The position numbers were made by a program, and so were the translations under genes. This document shows, one piece after another, positions 6,370 through 12,092 of a stretch of DNA of 17,821 nucleotides; the stretch's first letter is position 1; every line of letters begins with the position of its first letter. The notes under the pieces were generated by a model. The model worked only from the letters and a program-made list of their open reading frames with translations, was not told the DNA's origin and made no database searches. The DNA comes from Candidatus Alcyoniella australis. GTDB lineage: Bacteria > Lernaellota > Lernaellaia > JAVCCG01 > Alcyoniellaceae. The DNA lies in the NCBI GenBank assembly GCA_030765605.1, contig JAVCCG010000136.1, forward strand, positions 1 through 17,821, given 5' to 3'.

Positions 6370-6846
6370 GTGGACGAGCTGAACGGCCCGACCGTCCAAT
6401 CGATCAAGATCGATGGCCAAGGCGACCTGTACCACGAGGGCGTCAAGATTACCCACGCCCGCACCATCGAGCTTTTTCTGCGCAGCCTGCGGCGTTTGCC
6501 CGACGGCGGATACGTGATCGAGGTCGGCAACGAGTCGGCGCCGGTCGACGTTGAGGACGTGCCGCTGCTGATCACCAGCTTCGGCCTCGAGCACGGCCGG
6601 CCGCTGTGCATCACCAACGACGGGCTGCGCGACGAGCTGCGGCCCGATTCGCTGTGGATCGGGCCCCAGGGCGCGCTCTACGGCGTGCTTGCTGACCGCG
6701 GACTGGCCGCGCGCTTCGTGCGTTCGGCCCACGTGCAGGCGGCGCAGCACGTACAGCCCGACCGCAACGCCCCGCAACGTTTCGTGATCTGCATCGGCGA
6801 ACGGGAATATCCGATCCGGCTCGGGCCTGCGGAAGATGGCGGGTGA
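6370..6846 (+). CDS. DUF1285-like protein
   Basis: The 158-residue soluble protein has the DUF1285 pattern: a short beta hairpin, I-x-x-x-G-x-LYHEGVKITHARTIELFLRSL (about residues 13-40; family form is D-G-x-W-F-x-E-G-x-P-I-x-R-x-x-L-V-x-L-F-x-x-x-L), then DGGYVIEVGNE and VDVEDVPLLI (about 59-68). The second half (LWIGPQGALYGVL...) looks like the repeated lobe of the fold. Function of the family is unknown. The start is GTG 6370, chosen because GGAGGA lies seven bases upstream. Its end overlaps the next ORF by 11 bases, so the two are almost certainly co-translated. No signal peptide or membrane segment. Confidence 0.65.
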   Translation: MDELNGPTVQSIKIDGQGDLYHEGVKITHARTIELFLRSLRRLPDGGYVIEVGNESAPVDVEDVPLLITSFGLEHGRPLCITNDGLRDELRPDSLWIGPQGALYGVLADRGLAARFVRSAHVQAAQHVQPDRNAPQRFVICIGEREYPIRLGPAEDGG

Positions 6847-8794
6847 CTCGCGTAGCACGCGCCTGAGCCGCGGCCGCCTGGCCGCGCTGATCGCCCTGGT
6901 CTGCGTCTCGCTGGCCCTGCGGCTGTGGGCCGGGCTGCACAACCCCATCGATTTGCACGAGCTCAAGCTGGCCATGGGCGTGCATCAGCTGCTCAGCGAA
7001 CACACGCTGTCGCTCACCGGCGTGCGCGTACACGAATCGCCGCTCTCCGGCGGCCCGCTGATCTTTATCTACCTCGCCTTGGCCTCGGCGCTGTGTCCGA
7101 CGTTCTACGGTTCGATGTTGGCCACGCTGATCATCTCGGCCCTGGCCGTACTCGGCGTGTACGCCGCAGCGCGGCGCTTTCTGGGCGCGCAAGGCGGGCT
7201 GTGGGCCGCGGCGATCTACGCCTTGGGGCCGCTGTATTTTCTGACGAGCCACGAGCTGGACAACAACCGCGTGGCAGTGCCGTTCCTGATCCTCGCGGCC
7301 TGGACCCAGTCCGCGCTGCTGGCGCGCAGCAACGCACGCTCGCTACGGTTGGGACATCTGGCGCTGTGGGCGCTGAGCTGGCTTATATTGCTGCAGATCA
7401 ACTTCACGCCGATTCTGGTGCTGCCGGCATTTGCGCTGCCGGTGCTGCTGGCTTGGCCGCGCCGCCGTTGGCCGATATTGGTCGGAGTGTTGATCGCCGC
7501 CGGACTGGCGATGGCCGGGTTGCTCTACGCCTTCTCGTTCACCACCGGTGTGGAGGTTCCGCGGCGGCTGGGGCAGCTTGCGGTCGTTCAGATCGGCCGC
7601 ACGGGCGTGGCCGACGCGTTGGCCGCGTTGTGGGCCACCAACCGGCTGATGGGCAATCAGCTGCTGCCCAGCCTGCTGCTGGCGCTGGCGCTGGCGCTAA
7701 GCGCAATTCCAAGGCTGTGGCGCGCGCAGGGCGGGCGCGGATTGGCGCTGTTCGACCTCTGGATCGGGCTGTGGCTGCTGTGCGGACACCTGGGTGTGGT
7801 GGCGTTCGAGCCGCGGCTGATGGTGCACTATCTGGCCGTGACCTATCCGGCCCAGGCGCTGCTTGTGGTGCGGCTGTTCCAGGTGGCGCGGCCGCGACTG
7901 GCCAGCCTGCTGATGGGCTCTGGCGCGCCGCGCGTGCGCGCGCAACGCACCGCCAGCGCAGGCCTGGCCGCTGTGCTCGGCGTTCATTGCTTCGCGCTGC
8001 TGCTGGGTTTCCACCTGCTGGGGCATCTGGACTTTCTGCAACGCACACAGCGCGACGACCCACAGCTGGCCGACGCGTTGGAGCTGGTGGATGTGCGTAC
8101 GCTGCAAGGGCTGGCGGACGAGCTGGGCCGGGCCGGGGCTGTGACCGGTATCGACGGTTCGTGCGTACACGGCGCGCAGCTCGATTTGCTGCACCTCTAC
8201 TTGCCGCAGCTCAGTCCCTGGATGCCGCCGGTGGCCGACGCCTGCCGCAAGCCGCTGACCGTGCTTGGACCCTCGTTGCGCCAAGCTGCGCAGGACCACG
8301 TGCTCGCGCGGGTGCGCGGTTTTACATTGATCGAGCGCGACACGGTTTTCGACCTGGGCGCGGCCGGTCTGGAGCTGGCCCAAGTGCGGTCCGCGCCCGA
8401 GCTGGAGCTGGTCAACAGGCTGATCGTGCCGCTGCCGCGGCTGCACACGCCGCTGACCCTGCACACACCGCAACGCAACTTCCATCGCATCAACCTGCCG
8501 CTTGATCCCGACGCTGCGCCTTTCTCGCGCGTGGGCGTGGTGCTCTGCTTTGATTCCAACGCCTCGCCGCGGGTCAGCCTGAGGGTGGGCGATGCGCGCG
8601 CCGCACTCACGGGCCTGGATCGTCGCACGACCCTGGTCGACGACCGGCGCACCATCGATGTCTGGTGGTTCGACGTGGGTCGCGCCTGGAAAGATCAGCC
8701 CCGCAACGCGCTGCTCGAGGTGCATTTCAGGCCCAAGGACGAGCAGTCGACCGAGTCGATCGACTACCTGATCGACCTGGTCGAGGTGCCGTAA
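6836..8794 (+). CDS. Polytopic membrane protein, GT-C (PMT/GT39-like) glycosyltransferase with C-terminal soluble domain
   Basis: The 652-residue protein has a first membrane helix at about 13-33, then an exocytoplasmic loop with NPIDLHELKLA (Asp39, Glu42), the position where GT-C enzymes carry their catalytic acidic residue. About ten further hydrophobic segments follow up to about residue 405 (for example LATLIISALAVLGVY, LGHLALWALSWLILLQ and LLLALALALSA). The last about 240 residues are soluble and beta-rich, probably periplasmic. This layout matches GT-C enzymes that use lipid-linked sugars, such as the PMT/ArnT superfamily; donor and acceptor are unknown. The ATG overlaps the DUF1285-like gene. 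The TAA stop (8792-8794) is inside the left target duplication of the downstream transposon, so the insertion left this gene intact. Confidence 0.72.
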   Translation: MAGDSRSTRLSRGRLAALIALVCVSLALRLWAGLHNPIDLHELKLAMGVHQLLSEHTLSLTGVRVHESPLSGGPLIFIYLALASALCPTFYGSMLATLIISALAVLGVYAAARRFLGAQGGLWAAAIYALGPLYFLTSHELDNNRVAVPFLILAAWTQSALLARSNARSLRLGHLALWALSWLILLQINFTPILVLPAFALPVLLAWPRRRWPILVGVLIAAGLAMAGLLYAFSFTTGVEVPRRLGQLAVVQIGRTGVADALAALWATNRLMGNQLLPSLLLALALALSAIPRLWRAQGGRGLALFDLWIGLWLLCGHLGVVAFEPRLMVHYLAVTYPAQALLVVRLFQVARPRLASLLMGSGAPRVRAQRTASAGLAAVLGVHCFALLLGFHLLGHLDFLQRTQRDDPQLADALELVDVRTLQGLADELGRAGAVTGIDGSCVHGAQLDLLHLYLPQLSPWMPPVADACRKPLTVLGPSLRQAAQDHVLARVRGFTLIERDTVFDLGAAGLELAQVRSAPELELVNRLIVPLPRLHTPLTLHTPQRNFHRINLPLDPDAAPFSRVGVVLCFDSNASPRVSLRVGDARAALTGLDRRTTLVDDRRTIDVWWFDVGRAWKDQPRNALLEVHFRPKDEQSTESIDYLIDLVEVP

Positions 8795-8797
8795 TCT
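8790..8797. repeat. Target-site duplication, left copy (CGTAATCT)
   Basis: The octamer CGTAATCT lies immediately outside the left terminal repeat of the transposon and is repeated exactly at 12085-12092 outside the right one. It includes the TAA stop of the glycosyltransferase gene. An 8-bp duplication fits IS1-type (8-9 bp) transposition. Confidence 0.92.
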
Positions 8798-8817
8798 GGT
8801 AGTGCCTCAGTTTGAAT
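8798..8817 (+). repeat. Transposon left terminal inverted repeat
   Basis: GGTAGTGCCTCAGTTTGAAT; differs from the right repeat only at positions 8 and 14. It starts directly after the CGTAATCT duplication. Confidence 0.92.
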
Positions 8818-8822
8818 TTCTC

Positions 8823-8862
8823 GGCTCTATGTCGGCATATGGTCCCATGCTAAAATAGAGCC
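8823..8862 (+). promoter_or_regulatory. Nested dyad directly before the KGG gene start
   Basis: GGCTCTAT (8823-8830) is perfectly inverted as ATAGAGCC (8855-8862), ending one base before the ATG. Inside the loop ATGG-TC-CCAT (8839-8848) forms a second short dyad. The space normally occupied by a Shine-Dalgarno is the right arm of the outer repeat, and no better ribosome binding site is visible. It could be an operator overlapping the promoter (TAAAAT at 8851-8856 as -10) or an RNA hairpin controlling translation; the sequence alone does not decide. Confidence 0.5.
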
Positions 8863-9099
8863 ATGCCTAAAGGACCCAAAGGACAGAAGCGACCAGGGGA
8901 CGTGATTGGCGCTGCAATCAAAGTCGCCAAGATTGCCACCGGCGAAGTTGAAGACGACTCCGGCCTCGAAGGCAAGGAGTACGCCAGCAAGGGAGGCAAG
9001 AAAGGTGGAAAGGCGCGCGCAAAGAAACTCTCGCCAGAACAACGGGCTGAGATTGCGCGGAAGGCAGCCGTTTCCCGATGGTCAAAAGTGAAAAGGTAA
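8863..9099 (+). CDS. Small basic KGG-motif protein
   Basis: The 78-residue, strongly basic protein starts MPKGPKGQKRPGDVIG and contains VAKIATGE (21-28), an acidic linker (29-40), then a glycine/lysine segment KGGKKGGKARAKKLSPEQR (43-61) and IARKAA-x-x-RW. This two-part pattern is widespread in bacterial hypothetical proteins that are often labelled RNA-binding or stress-induced KGG proteins. The C-terminal part resembles the KGG repeats of general stress proteins and would suit nucleic-acid binding. No experimental role is known to me. As the first passenger gene of the transposon it could be an accessory DNA-binding protein for transposition or unrelated cargo. A dyad precedes the ATG, and its stop codon is inside the next dyad (9096-9118). 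Confidence 0.8.
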   Translation: MPKGPKGQKRPGDVIGAAIKVAKIATGEVEDDSGLEGKEYASKGGKKGGKARAKKLSPEQRAEIARKAAVSRWSKVKR

Positions 9100-9118
9100 C
9101 ATGTTCCCAATATGTTAC
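9096..9118 (+). promoter_or_regulatory. Candidate operator dyad upstream of the unknown-protein/protease operon
   Basis: GTAACAT (9096-9102) and ATGTTAC (9112-9118) are a perfect 7-bp inverted repeat with a 9-base spacer. The left half extends to the palindrome AACATGTT (9098-9105), and AATATGTT (9110-9117 region) is a near copy. It lies about 40 bases upstream of a TTGACA box and overlaps the stop codon of the KGG gene. The size fits an XRE-repressor operator; the regulator is inferred. Confidence 0.45.
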
Positions 9119-9158
9119 GCCTATCAGTAAAAAAATATCGCCAATCTGCCCTTTTCGC

Positions 9159-9188
9159 TTGACAAATATAGCCATAATCGACGAAGAT
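9159..9188 (+). promoter_or_regulatory. Possible sigma-70 promoter for the unknown-protein/protease operon
   Basis: A perfect -35 box TTGACA is at 9159-9164. The best -10 at normal spacing is GAAGAT (9183-9188, 18-base spacer), a weak match; an activator or another -10 may be used. The following gene starts at 9236, leaving a leader of about 40 bases. Confidence 0.4.
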
Positions 9189-9235
9189 AGAAACTGGAGT
9201 TTCGAGTTAAGTTTGGCAGAGCGAAAGGAACATCC

Positions 9236-9892
9236 ATGCTGGTCACCAAGGAATCCGCGCGAGAGTTAATCCTCGGTAGTTTTTCAACTCAGTTTCTCAA
9301 GGGTCTGACCGTGATTGCGTACGAGGCTACGAAGCGAAGCCGTGAAATCGCGTGCGAGGACCAGTTTTCGGATCACGTGCGCCCGCATATGGCGGGGCAG
9401 AATCGTTGGGGACTGATCGAGTCCCTATTGCTCCCGCTCGTCGAATCGACGCCTGATGTCATCGGGGAGAAAGCGAAGAACGCAACTGGTTCGTCCACGC
9501 ACTACGAAGTTCGTTCTGGTCGCTGCATTCTCACGGTCGCTGCTTCCCGTAATCGGGCAATCCCGAAAAAGGCGGTTTACCGTTTGGACCTGAGCCAATC
9601 GAACCAACTCAGTTTATTTGATAAGAACGATGCGGACTCGGACAGCCCAATCTACGTCGTCCTCAACTTCGGCTCATGCGGATCGTGTAGGTCGAAGGAG
9701 AATCTCAACGATATGCCGGAGTGGATTCTGTTGCAGGTGCCAGATGTGAAATTCCGTCATGCGATCGCTGAGGTCAGTCTCAAGGAACTCTTTCCAGACG
9801 TGGTAGCAAAGTACGAACAGAAGACGGCCGAGGAATCCATCCCGGTAGCCCGTACTACTCCGAAACGGAACGTCGCTATCTCGGAGGGCTAA
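9236..9892 (+). CDS. Unknown protein, 218 aa, partner of the XRE-ImmA/IrrE protease
   Basis: I do not recognise the family. The protein is soluble, with no signal peptide or membrane helix. It begins with a probable alpha-helical segment (5-40), a central part with GQNRWGLIESLLLPLVES (54-71), a beta-rich stretch (HYEVRSGRCILTVAASRNR..., 89-108; VYRLDLSQSNQLSLF, 114-128; PIYVVLNFG, 138-146) with a C-G-S-C pair (Cys148, Cys151), then EWILLQVPD and a disordered, lysine/threonine-rich tail. Start ATG 9236 has AAAGGAA five bases upstream. The stop is three bases before the start of the protease gene, so the two form an operon. It might be the protease substrate, an antitoxin-like partner or a sensor; all are guesses from context. 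Confidence 0.75.
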   Translation: MLVTKESARELILGSFSTQFLKGLTVIAYEATKRSREIACEDQFSDHVRPHMAGQNRWGLIESLLLPLVESTPDVIGEKAKNATGSSTHYEVRSGRCILTVAASRNRAIPKKAVYRLDLSQSNQLSLFDKNDADSDSPIYVVLNFGSCGSCRSKENLNDMPEWILLQVPDVKFRHAIAEVSLKELFPDVVAKYEQKTAEESIPVARTTPKRNVAISEG

Positions 9893-9895
9893 CAG

Positions 9896-11110
9896 TTGCG
9901 TGGTCGCTCGACACCGGGGTTTATCGGCGAACGGTTGCGCCAAATTCGTCTTGCTCGCGATGTGACCGTATATTCTCTTGCGGGGATGGCGGGTATTTCA
10001 CCGCAATCGATTTACGCATACGAGAGTGGACGTAGCACACCTACTGAAAACAACCTATCTACTCTGACGGCGATTCTGCGTATTCCTAGAGAATTTTTTT
10101 TCAATCCCATCGACGACGATTCGAAGCGAACGATCTTCTTTCGTTCGATGACCGCTGCTACGCAACGAGCGAGAGAACGGGCTTCGACATTCGCTGACTG
10201 GTCTCAAGAAGTCGTTGACTATCTTGAGATGCACTTGGACTTTCCGCCCAATCGATTTCCCGTATTCGACGTACCAGCCGATCCATTTCGAATCAGCTTT
10301 GCCGACATTGAAGAGTTGGCTAATAAGACAAGAGAGGCTTGGGGCCTTGGAGATGGGCCGATTGGAAATGTCGTACAAGCAATCGAAGCGATGGGCGGAA
10401 TCGTCGTGAAAATCCCGCTCCTTTCCGATCGTCTGGACGCTCTTTCAGTTGTTAGACCAGACCGGCCTCGACCTATTCTTATTCTCGGAGCCGAAAAGAC
10501 GTCCGCCGTTCGGTTGAGGTTTGATGCATGTCACGAAAAAGGCCATTGGATCTTGCATCGGAATGTGCCGCTTCAGAAACAGAAAGAGAAGCGCTACTTT
10601 GATTTGATGGAAAAACAGGCTCACCGCTTTGCCGCGGCGTTTATGATCCCTGCAAAAGCGTTTGTGGATGAATTCGTGTTTGCAGACCTAGACCTATTCC
10701 GTTCGATGAAAAGCCGCTGGAAGTGCTCTATTGCCATGATGATTATTCGTTCGCGAGACTTGGGCCTGATTGACGCGGATCGAGCAACTGTTCTCTGGAG
10801 AAACTTAGCGCGCCGGAAATGGAAGAAAAAAGAACCGCTAGATGACGAACTGCCGCCAGAGAAACCAAATATTCTGCGGCAGGGAATTGAAATGCTGATC
10901 GAAGAAGGCATCCAGAGTAGAGATTCCATCGTATCTTCGATCGGGTTAGGCGATTCTATTATTGAGGAAATCGCTGGTCTGCCATATGGATCGCTTTCGA
11001 AAACTCAGGGTCAGGTTTCTCTATTGCGCCCGAAGATGATGCAAAAACAAATCCGTGCGGATGGGGAAAACAACGAAAACGGGGGGCAAGTAATTAGATT
11101 CCCGAAATAG
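9896..11110 (+). CDS. XRE-family HTH / ImmA-IrrE metallopeptidase fusion
   Basis: The 404-residue protein has an N-terminal helix-turn-helix of the Cro/CI type (about 9-66: GERLRQIRLARDVTVYSLAG, then ISPQSIYAYESGRSTPT) and a central ImmA/IrrE (DUF955) zinc-peptidase domain (about 135-260). The metal and catalytic motif HEKGH is intact (His213, Glu214, His217). The downstream helix reads EKQAHRFAAAFMIP (239-252), where the family usually has E-x-E-A-x-x-FA, so the expected third ligand appears as Gln241 and Glu239 may substitute. The tail (about 300-404) is charged. ImmA proteases cleave phage and ICE repressors after DNA damage; fused forms carry repressor and protease together. The start TTG 9896 follows GGAGGG by seven bases. 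Its position just upstream of the transposase promoter suggests control of transposition, or a defence or stress cargo. Confidence 0.88.
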   Translation: MRGRSTPGFIGERLRQIRLARDVTVYSLAGMAGISPQSIYAYESGRSTPTENNLSTLTAILRIPREFFFNPIDDDSKRTIFFRSMTAATQRARERASTFADWSQEVVDYLEMHLDFPPNRFPVFDVPADPFRISFADIEELANKTREAWGLGDGPIGNVVQAIEAMGGIVVKIPLLSDRLDALSVVRPDRPRPILILGAEKTSAVRLRFDACHEKGHWILHRNVPLQKQKEKRYFDLMEKQAHRFAAAFMIPAKAFVDEFVFADLDLFRSMKSRWKCSIAMMIIRSRDLGLIDADRATVLWRNLARRKWKKKEPLDDELPPEKPNILRQGIEMLIEEGIQSRDSIVSSIGLGDSIIEEIAGLPYGSLSKTQGQVSLLRPKMMQKQIRADGENNENGGQVIRFPK

Positions 11111-11175
11111 AAAGAGCGACTGGATTATTGCTCTGTCAACCCTTATTTGGCCCCATAGGCCAGAACCTGAAGTAA

Positions 11176-11208
11176 ATGCTTGACACTCAAGCATAAAGTT
11201 CATATTAT
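11176..11208 (+). promoter_or_regulatory. Transposase promoter with dyad operator over the -35 box
   Basis: TTGACA (11180-11185), 17 bases, TATTAT (11203-11208): a near-consensus sigma-70 promoter. The perfect dyad ATGCTTGA-CAC-TCAAGCAT (11176-11194) covers the -35 box, so a bound dimer would exclude RNA polymerase. The -10 box ends six bases before the transposase ATG (11215), which puts the expected transcription start at or next to the A of the ATG, suggesting a leaderless message. The XRE-type protein encoded just upstream is the obvious candidate repressor; this is inference. Confidence 0.72.
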
Positions 11209-11214
11209 AAAGGC

Positions 11215-12075
11215 ATGAACAGATTGCCTTTCGAGAAGAGAGCTCAGATCCTCCACATGCTCTGTGAGGGATCGTCGATGCGCAGCGTTTCCAGGATCGT
11301 TGGCGTATCGATCAACACGGTCACTAAACTCCTTGTCGACGCTGGAACGGCCTGCGCCGCGTTTCACGACAAAACGGTTCACGGTGTGACCAGCGAGCGA
11401 ATCCAGTGCGATGAGATTTGGTCGTTCGTCGGGAAGAAGCAAAAGAACGTCCGCAAAGAAAAAGGCGATCCCGATGGGGTAGGCGACGCATGGACCTGGA
11501 CAGCGATCGACGCCGACTCGAAATTGATAGTCTCTTGGCTCGTTGGGAACCGCGACGGTGCAACGGCAACGCAATTCGTACAAGACCTCGCTTCGCGGCT
11601 TGCCAGTCGAGTTCAACTAACCACAGACGGCCAGAGGGTCTACCTTCAAGCCATCCAAGGGGTCTTCGGGGCAGATGTCGACTACGCCATGCTGATAAAA
11701 CACTACGATGCTGAGCGGGCTGGAGAGGCACGCTATAGCCCCGCAAAATGTACAGGGACCGATAAGCACGCGATCACTGGCAATCCAGACGAAAGGCACG
11801 TCTCCACAAGCTACGTAGAACGTCAGAACTTGTCGATCCGAATGGGCAATCGACGGTTCACGCGCTTGACGAATGCCTTTTCGAAAAAGGTCGAAAACCA
11901 CTGCCACGCGCTCGCGTTGTACTTCGTTTTCTACAACTTCGTTCGAATCCACAAGACGCTTCGGGTTTCCCCAGCGATGGCCGCGGGCGTGACCGACCGC
12001 CTTTGGGAAATGTCCGACATCGTTCGGTTGATCGACGAACAAAAAGCGACGCGGGAAAATGATGATTCAAGCTGA
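11215..12075 (+). CDS. IS1-like family transposase (DDE)
   Basis: The 286-residue single-ORF transposase has an N-terminal helix-turn-helix (about 18-42: [22 protein letters not shown]) and a DDE catalytic domain with Asp66 in CDEIWSF, Asp138 in TTDGQRVY and Glu202 in YVERQNL. It continues with [15 protein letters not shown] and [21 protein letters not shown], all typical of the group usually annotated as IS1 family transposase. Unlike classical InsA/InsB of IS1 it needs no frameshift. It appears complete and all three acidic residues are present. The start ATG 11215 is supported by the usual N-terminus and lies at the predicted transcription start; only AAAGG precedes it. The TGA stop lies inside the right terminal repeat. 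Confidence 0.93.
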
Positions 12076-12084
12076 GACACTACC
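12065..12084 (-). repeat. Transposon right terminal inverted repeat
   Basis: Read on the minus strand: GGTAGTGTCTCAGCTTGAAT, 18/20 identical to the left end. It contains the transposase stop codon (12073-12075). Confidence 0.92.
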
Positions 12085-12092
12085 CGTAATCT
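12085..12092. repeat. Target-site duplication, right copy (CGTAATCT)
   Basis: Exact copy of 8790-8797, directly after the right terminal repeat. Chromosomal sequence resumes with GCGCTGATTGACC. Confidence 0.92.

Follow-up and report, generated by a model that had tools for sequence, protein, structure and literature searches.

A 3287-bp unit with the ends and transposase of an IS1-type element lies at positions 8798–12084 of the DNA analysed here (the window: the whole 17,821-nt stretch of contig JAVCCG010000136.1 from Candidatus Alcyoniella australis). With four open reading frames (ORFs), all on the + strand (78, 218, 404 and 286 aa), it raises the question of whether such a unit is a genuine transposon and, if it is, what its additional genes represent. 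We find that it very probably belongs to a widespread family of compact IS1-type transposons in which a fixed chassis carries an exchangeable toxin–antitoxin (TA) or defence-like cassette. The chassis comprises the ends (family consensus GGTAGTGTCTCAGTTTGAA), a leftmost gene for a small KGG protein, and a transposase encoded by a single ORF with a promoter of its own; in the window the cassette is, by homology, a RosmerTA pair (Table 1).

A complete transposon with a family of relatives

The window element is a real, complete transposon. Its 20-bp ends, GGTAGTGCCTCAGTTTGAAT and GGTAGTGTCTCAGCTTGAAT, begin with GGTAGTG and agree at 18 of 20 positions, a perfect 8-bp duplication, CGTAATCT, flanks them and the transposase is intact, all as the original prediction had it. 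The element was inserted at the codon that ends the upstream ORF (6836–8794), and because this stop codon is part of the left duplication the ORF is left intact. Transposase relatives were collected from viral contigs and from bacterial and archaeal genomes, and 106 of the ~150 loci examined, the window's included, proved to hold a complete element bounded by both ends and flanked by an 8-bp duplication. The non-redundant set holds 103 elements, no two with the same duplication, and 98 of the duplications are perfect, which bears out the expectation that other copies would have GGTAGTG ends and differ in their duplications. Ends like these, next to an 8-bp duplication, are found again across this set, so the window element is not a chance arrangement. 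Complete elements are 1413–6552 bp long (median ~3 kb), and their target preference is symmetric, CAA-N7-8 bp-N7-TTG.

Named hosts of the members on genome contigs are mostly Alphaproteobacteria, together with Nitrospirota, Desulfarculia and Myxococcia. The 6552-bp member, which holds RosmerTA with another toxin type, comes from a genome in the same class as that of the window. Annotated plasmids provide three further elements with perfect duplications (Hoeflea, Acidiphilium and Mesorhizobium), where the transposase is labelled IS1 family and the Mesorhizobium KGG protein histone H1. RES/Xre genes beside the Acidiphilium element were considered as cargo and rejected, as they are located at or past its right end. 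In Sphingopyxis sp. PET50, two copies of 3316 bp are identical in sequence but sit between different duplications, and the transposase is present a third time in a form that differs from theirs. In Bradyrhizobium, the joined flanks of one element (L124) give a 600-bp sequence that is uninterrupted in many congeners, a precise empty site: the empty locus L229 has one GGAGAGAG, L124 has GGAAAGAG on both sides and no family element is found in L250 or L251, at or near the L124 site. The identical Sphingopyxis copies and the Bradyrhizobium empty sites show that the elements have moved recently, and as a unit.

Three Bradyrhizobium loci (L124, L100 and L249) have insertions at the same spot, upstream of a yifB/comM-like gene, with duplications GGAAAGAG, GGACGGCG and GGAGAAGG. 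The element in L249 is a different one, with a transposase 52% identical, ends GGTAATGGGTCCGTTCAATTGTGACG and its own KGG gene. These observations suggest a hot spot for insertion and the existence of a second clade related to the first. Two Afipia elements (L081 and L102) both lie upstream of an apparent recA, and the last part of the left flank of L102 is the right end of another element of this kind.

Table 1. Features of the transposon and its target site in the window
Feature	Position	Strand	Remarks
Left target-site duplication CGTAATCT	8790..8797		Includes stop codon of upstream ORF
Left terminal inverted repeat GGTAGTGCCTCAGTTTGAAT	8798..8817	+	18/20 against right end; family consensus GGTAGTGTCTCAGTTTGAA
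KGG small basic protein, 78 aa (MPKGPKGQKRP...GKKGGKARAKKLSPEQRAEIARKAAVSRW), core gene	8863..9099	+	Three helices predicted
RmrT, putative Rosmer-type toxin, 218 aa	9236..9892	+	PADLOC RmrT PDLC03933, E=5.4e-12; 3 nt upstream of RmrA
RmrA, putative Rosmer-type antitoxin, 404 aa, XRE helix-turn-helix and ImmA/IrrE (Peptidase_M78)	9896..11110	+	PADLOC RmrA, E=1.1e-111, full length; Pfam
HEKGH (HExxH) zinc-protease motif of RmrA, residues 213–217	10532..10546	+	Intact
Transposase promoter TTGACA-17-TATTAT	11180..11208	+	11/12 match
IS1-type DDE transposase, 286 aa, single ORF	11215..12075	+	D66, D138, E202; Pfam DDE_Tnp_IS1
Right terminal inverted repeat GGTAGTGTCTCAGCTTGAAT (read inwards)	12065..12084	-	Overlaps transposase stop region
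Right target-site duplication CGTAATCT	12085..12092		Perfect match to left copy

The transposase and its promoter

By its model scores, the transposase is related to IS1 but falls outside the named NCBIfam IS1 family: it passes Pfam DDE_Tnp_IS1 (29.8 bits; cut-off 24.1) and misses the NCBIfam IS1 equivalog model (72.9 bits; cut-off 100). Residues D66, D138 and E202 are invariant in 99 family sequences. A family promoter, TTGAC/TATAT, precedes the gene whatever the type of cassette; its −10 box abuts the start codon, and the −35 position is conserved in 85 of the 103 elements against a shuffle mean of 5.8. From this spacing, transcription would start at or beside the ATG and yield a leaderless or near-leaderless mRNA. 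A palindromic operator upstream of the window transposase, ATGCTTGA-CAC-TCAAGCAT, was rejected as a family feature, since just 8 of 118 upstream regions have the TTGA-TCAA inverted repeat. The sole phage record with a transposase relative (33% identity) is that of Brevundimonas phage vB_BpoS-Gurke (ON529850.1:174779-175666), where it is unannotated.

A conserved core and an exchangeable cassette

Of the 103 complete elements left after removal of duplicates, 96 have the KGG gene. A scan of 119 elements found it in 111, on the + strand in 108 and normally at the left end; the minus-strand cases are L036, L093 and, with a weak E-value, L052, and those without KGG are distant short elements (L048, L054–L057, L061 and L066) and L060. 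Distances between KGG proteins follow those between transposases (Mantel r=0.64; 0/2000 permutations), and those between the RmrA antitoxins of the cassettes do not (r=0.09; 187/2000). Judged by occurrence and co-variation, KGG is core to the element, not a passenger, and of the three passenger genes originally proposed only the two large ORFs stand as cargo. Cassette proteins of the P63C type (for example L145:6795-7919) have the KGG motif, GGxARAxxLTPExRxEIAxKAAxxRW, at their N terminus as well.

Cassettes occupy the slot between KGG and the transposase, sometimes with a second one at the right, and include RosmerTA, PD-Lambda-2-like, Panacea, RelE/XRE, AbiEii-like ATPase, AAA and P63C types, among others. 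In 38 of the 96 KGG-bearing elements the cassette belongs to a family known from defence or TA systems (RmrA 20, PD-Lambda-2-like 6, Panacea 5, Abi-like 5, RelE/XRE 2, methylase-nuclease 2 and AbiEii-like ATPase 1, some elements carrying two), and a further 21 hold AAA, NYN or helix-turn-helix proteins of defence or TA style. A library scan of 150 cargo proteins returned RmrA 20–21 times, P63C 17, nSTAND/AAA 9, PD-Lambda-2_B 8, Panacea 6 and NYN 6.

Cassette type is almost random on the transposase tree, with 69 label changes where the minimum possible is 14 and the shuffled mean 74. Sister elements that have ends, KGG and transposase in common carry different cassettes (L105/L110, L084/L085, L103/L113, L092/L114 and L096/L112), with 82–94% DNA identity across this core. 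In L105 (P63C) and L110 (RosmerTA), KGG DNA is 88% and transposase 92% identical and the cassettes are unrelated; in L084 and L085 the corresponding values are 94% and 92%, and the cassettes differ wholly. Unrelated cassettes between the same ends and core are what a defence-carrying transposon with swapped cargo would present. RosmerTA cassettes lie in both orientations (13 and 7) and hold at least four toxin families without detectable mutual relation, in addition to the RmrT of the window.

The RosmerTA cassette of the window

The second and third ORFs of the element form a pair that is, by homology, a RosmerTA toxin–antitoxin and anti-phage system, with toxicity and defence the functions it would be expected to have. 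Pfam places XRE and Peptidase_M78 domains in the larger protein, which is thus the XRE-ImmA/IrrE fusion originally described, and the PADLOC matches of both proteins favour the idea, put forward at the same time, of a mobile defence or stress module. RmrA also matches the NCBIfam spr1629 repressor/antitoxin model at E=1.8e-55, under that model's cut-off. The PADLOC match of RmrT spans residues 81–150 of the 218, and Pfam returned no match for this protein. No RmrT relatives were found in viral contigs and plasmids, nor RmrA relatives in viral contigs by the search made.

RosmerTA systems pair one ImmA-type antitoxin with diverse toxins, and the RmrTA of phage Kita protects E. coli from some phages, its toxin depolarising membranes (PMC10440598); pneumococcal RipAB targets the sliding clamp DnaN (PMC12795458). 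Neither membrane depolarisation nor DnaN targeting can be assumed for the window toxin. The window pair likewise has an XRE-ImmA antitoxin beside a diverse toxin, toxin first and genes immediately adjacent, but its toxin is a divergent RmrT and the pair is transposon cargo.

Short derivatives and a distant clade

Transposase-less end pairs with a duplication measure 396–819 bp; an 895-bp pair keeps a transposase fragment, and pairs of 1982 and 2505 bp hold KGG and cargo. Short transposase-less end pairs with perfect 8-bp duplications were seen in viral contigs (L185, L196 and L202, each 396 bp, and L156, L162, L166, L168, L173, L206 and L211) and are likely non-autonomous derivatives. A distant clade (L052, L054, L056, L057, L061 and L066) consists of short elements (1.4–2.6 kb), mostly without KGG, that have a small ORF of their own (c14) at the right arm. 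Among complete elements we found no cargo-free relative of ordinary IS1 size, save a 1323-bp one with only a transposase and a degenerate KGG; cargo, initially regarded as an exception for IS1-type copies, is the rule in this family.

Alternative explanations

The genes inside the element could be random neighbours captured by imprecise use of the ends, with no preference for defence or TA genes and no exchange mechanism. Several cassettes are families without known function, and non-autonomous and one-ended derivatives do exist, but the same cassette families recur (RosmerTA 20, P63C 17, AAA 10 and PD-Lambda-2-like 6 of 96), they sit in the KGG-transposase slot or at the right arm, and they are swapped within otherwise near-identical elements, which makes random capture very unlikely. 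We consider it still less credible that the XRE-ImmA protein is a repressor-antirepressor in the style of integrative and conjugative elements (ICEs) or prophages that controls transposition and makes the transposon stress-inducible, one of the two options that the original prediction suggested. The union of XRE and Peptidase_M78 domains in one protein, the intact HExxH motif and the naming of ImmA after the ICEBs1 antirepressor (PMC10440598) all speak for such a switch. Rosmer antitoxins are by far the best matches, however; the protein is a fusion paired with RmrT, whose gene lies 3 nt upstream, not a separate repressor and antirepressor, and the majority of family members lack any XRE-ImmA protein. 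As the transposase has its own promoter whatever the cassette, RmrA is unlikely to drive transposition. A narrower doubt concerns KGG, a low-complexity protein of no known function, which might be an early-captured passenger without a role in the element; the distant short elements without it (L048, L054, L056, L057, L061 and L066) keep their ends and duplications. Its near-constant strand, its left-end position and its co-variation with the transposase make this rather improbable, as does its retention in some transposase-less derivatives (L192 and L195).

Several observations weigh against the chassis-and-cassette reading that we prefer. In 26 of the 96 KGG-bearing elements the cargo belongs to recurrent families without a known role, P63C among them, and another 11 have no recurrent cargo; it is therefore unproven that every cassette serves defence. 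The labels show slight clustering on the transposase tree (4 of 200 shuffles gave so low a count), and the parsimony count is inflated by branches with weak support, the starred branches alone forcing at least 12 RosmerTA changes. The contrast between the Mantel results for KGG and RmrA is weakened because the RmrA distances are large. The loci were picked by similarity to the window transposase, and the window genome has this single copy only. Checking for empty sites, as originally proposed, was successful for the Bradyrhizobium element, but no relative is close enough to show such a site for the window element. Likewise, the search for copies of the same gene set found KGG, transposase and ends recurring, but the cassette varies and the window's RmrT has no detectable relative in other family elements. 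Its structure, predicted from the single sequence, has a pLDDT (predicted local distance difference test score) of 31 and is unusable.

Discussion

The window element resembles IS1 in its DDE_Tnp_IS1 match, its GGnnnTG ends and its 8-bp duplication (8–9 bp in IS1). IS1, however, is compact and holds transposition genes only, in two frames (InsA/InsB'), whereas the window element combines a single 286-aa ORF with KGG and a cassette, and its family, with a transposase under the NCBIfam IS1 cut-off, extends from 1.4 to 6.6 kb. An IS1 subgroup in ISfinder (ISMhu11) appears to have longer members, and the neighbouring IS1595 family passenger genes. Tn3-family transposons with TA modules are known and, as in this family, carry the TA as addiction cargo inside the transposon; they differ in transposase, ends and mechanism, and here the cassette depends hardly at all on the lineage of the transposase. 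Defence cargo is also found in Tn7-like transposons, which take a variety of defence and TA genes from one host to another, distant one, but with multi-gene machinery and larger cargo (PMC8649781); in this family a lone transposase and its small companion travel with one or two cassettes in ~3 kb. Cargo-bearing insertion sequences and defence-carrying transposons are thus known kinds; the open-access literature searched did not yield any account of this chassis or of its ends, which is weak evidence of novelty.

We propose that the transposase would catalyse insertion at the symmetric target, generating the 8-bp duplication, and that the cassette is exchanged as a whole. The simplest route for this exchange would be homologous recombination, with the KGG and transposase sequences on either side of the cassette serving as the regions of homology between two elements. 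In the window, RmrA would bind its own operon through the XRE domain and restrain RmrT; were this control disturbed, for example by a phage, RmrT would be released and growth would stop. The element would benefit because its loss is punished (addiction) and because phage-resistant hosts survive. It is possible, if somewhat short of probable, that KGG and the transposase together are a two-gene platform dedicated to the carriage and exchange of defence and TA cassettes, with KGG acting in transposition or exchange. Such a platform would be a transposon counterpart, in ~3 kb, of integrons and defence islands, and defence or TA systems not yet described would be over-represented among the cassettes of unknown function (P63C, AAA c4, SDH-protease, c12/c18 and others).

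RosmerTA, PD-Lambda-2-like, Panacea, AbiEii-like and Abi-like genes share their slots with recurrent genes of unknown function, and because the ends of the elements are sharp, the cassette slot is a ready place to seek undescribed defence systems. The strong swap signal makes the way in which cassettes are exchanged directly testable. For its hosts, the family is a plausible vehicle by which small TA and anti-phage modules may jump, one at a time, between distant bacteria.

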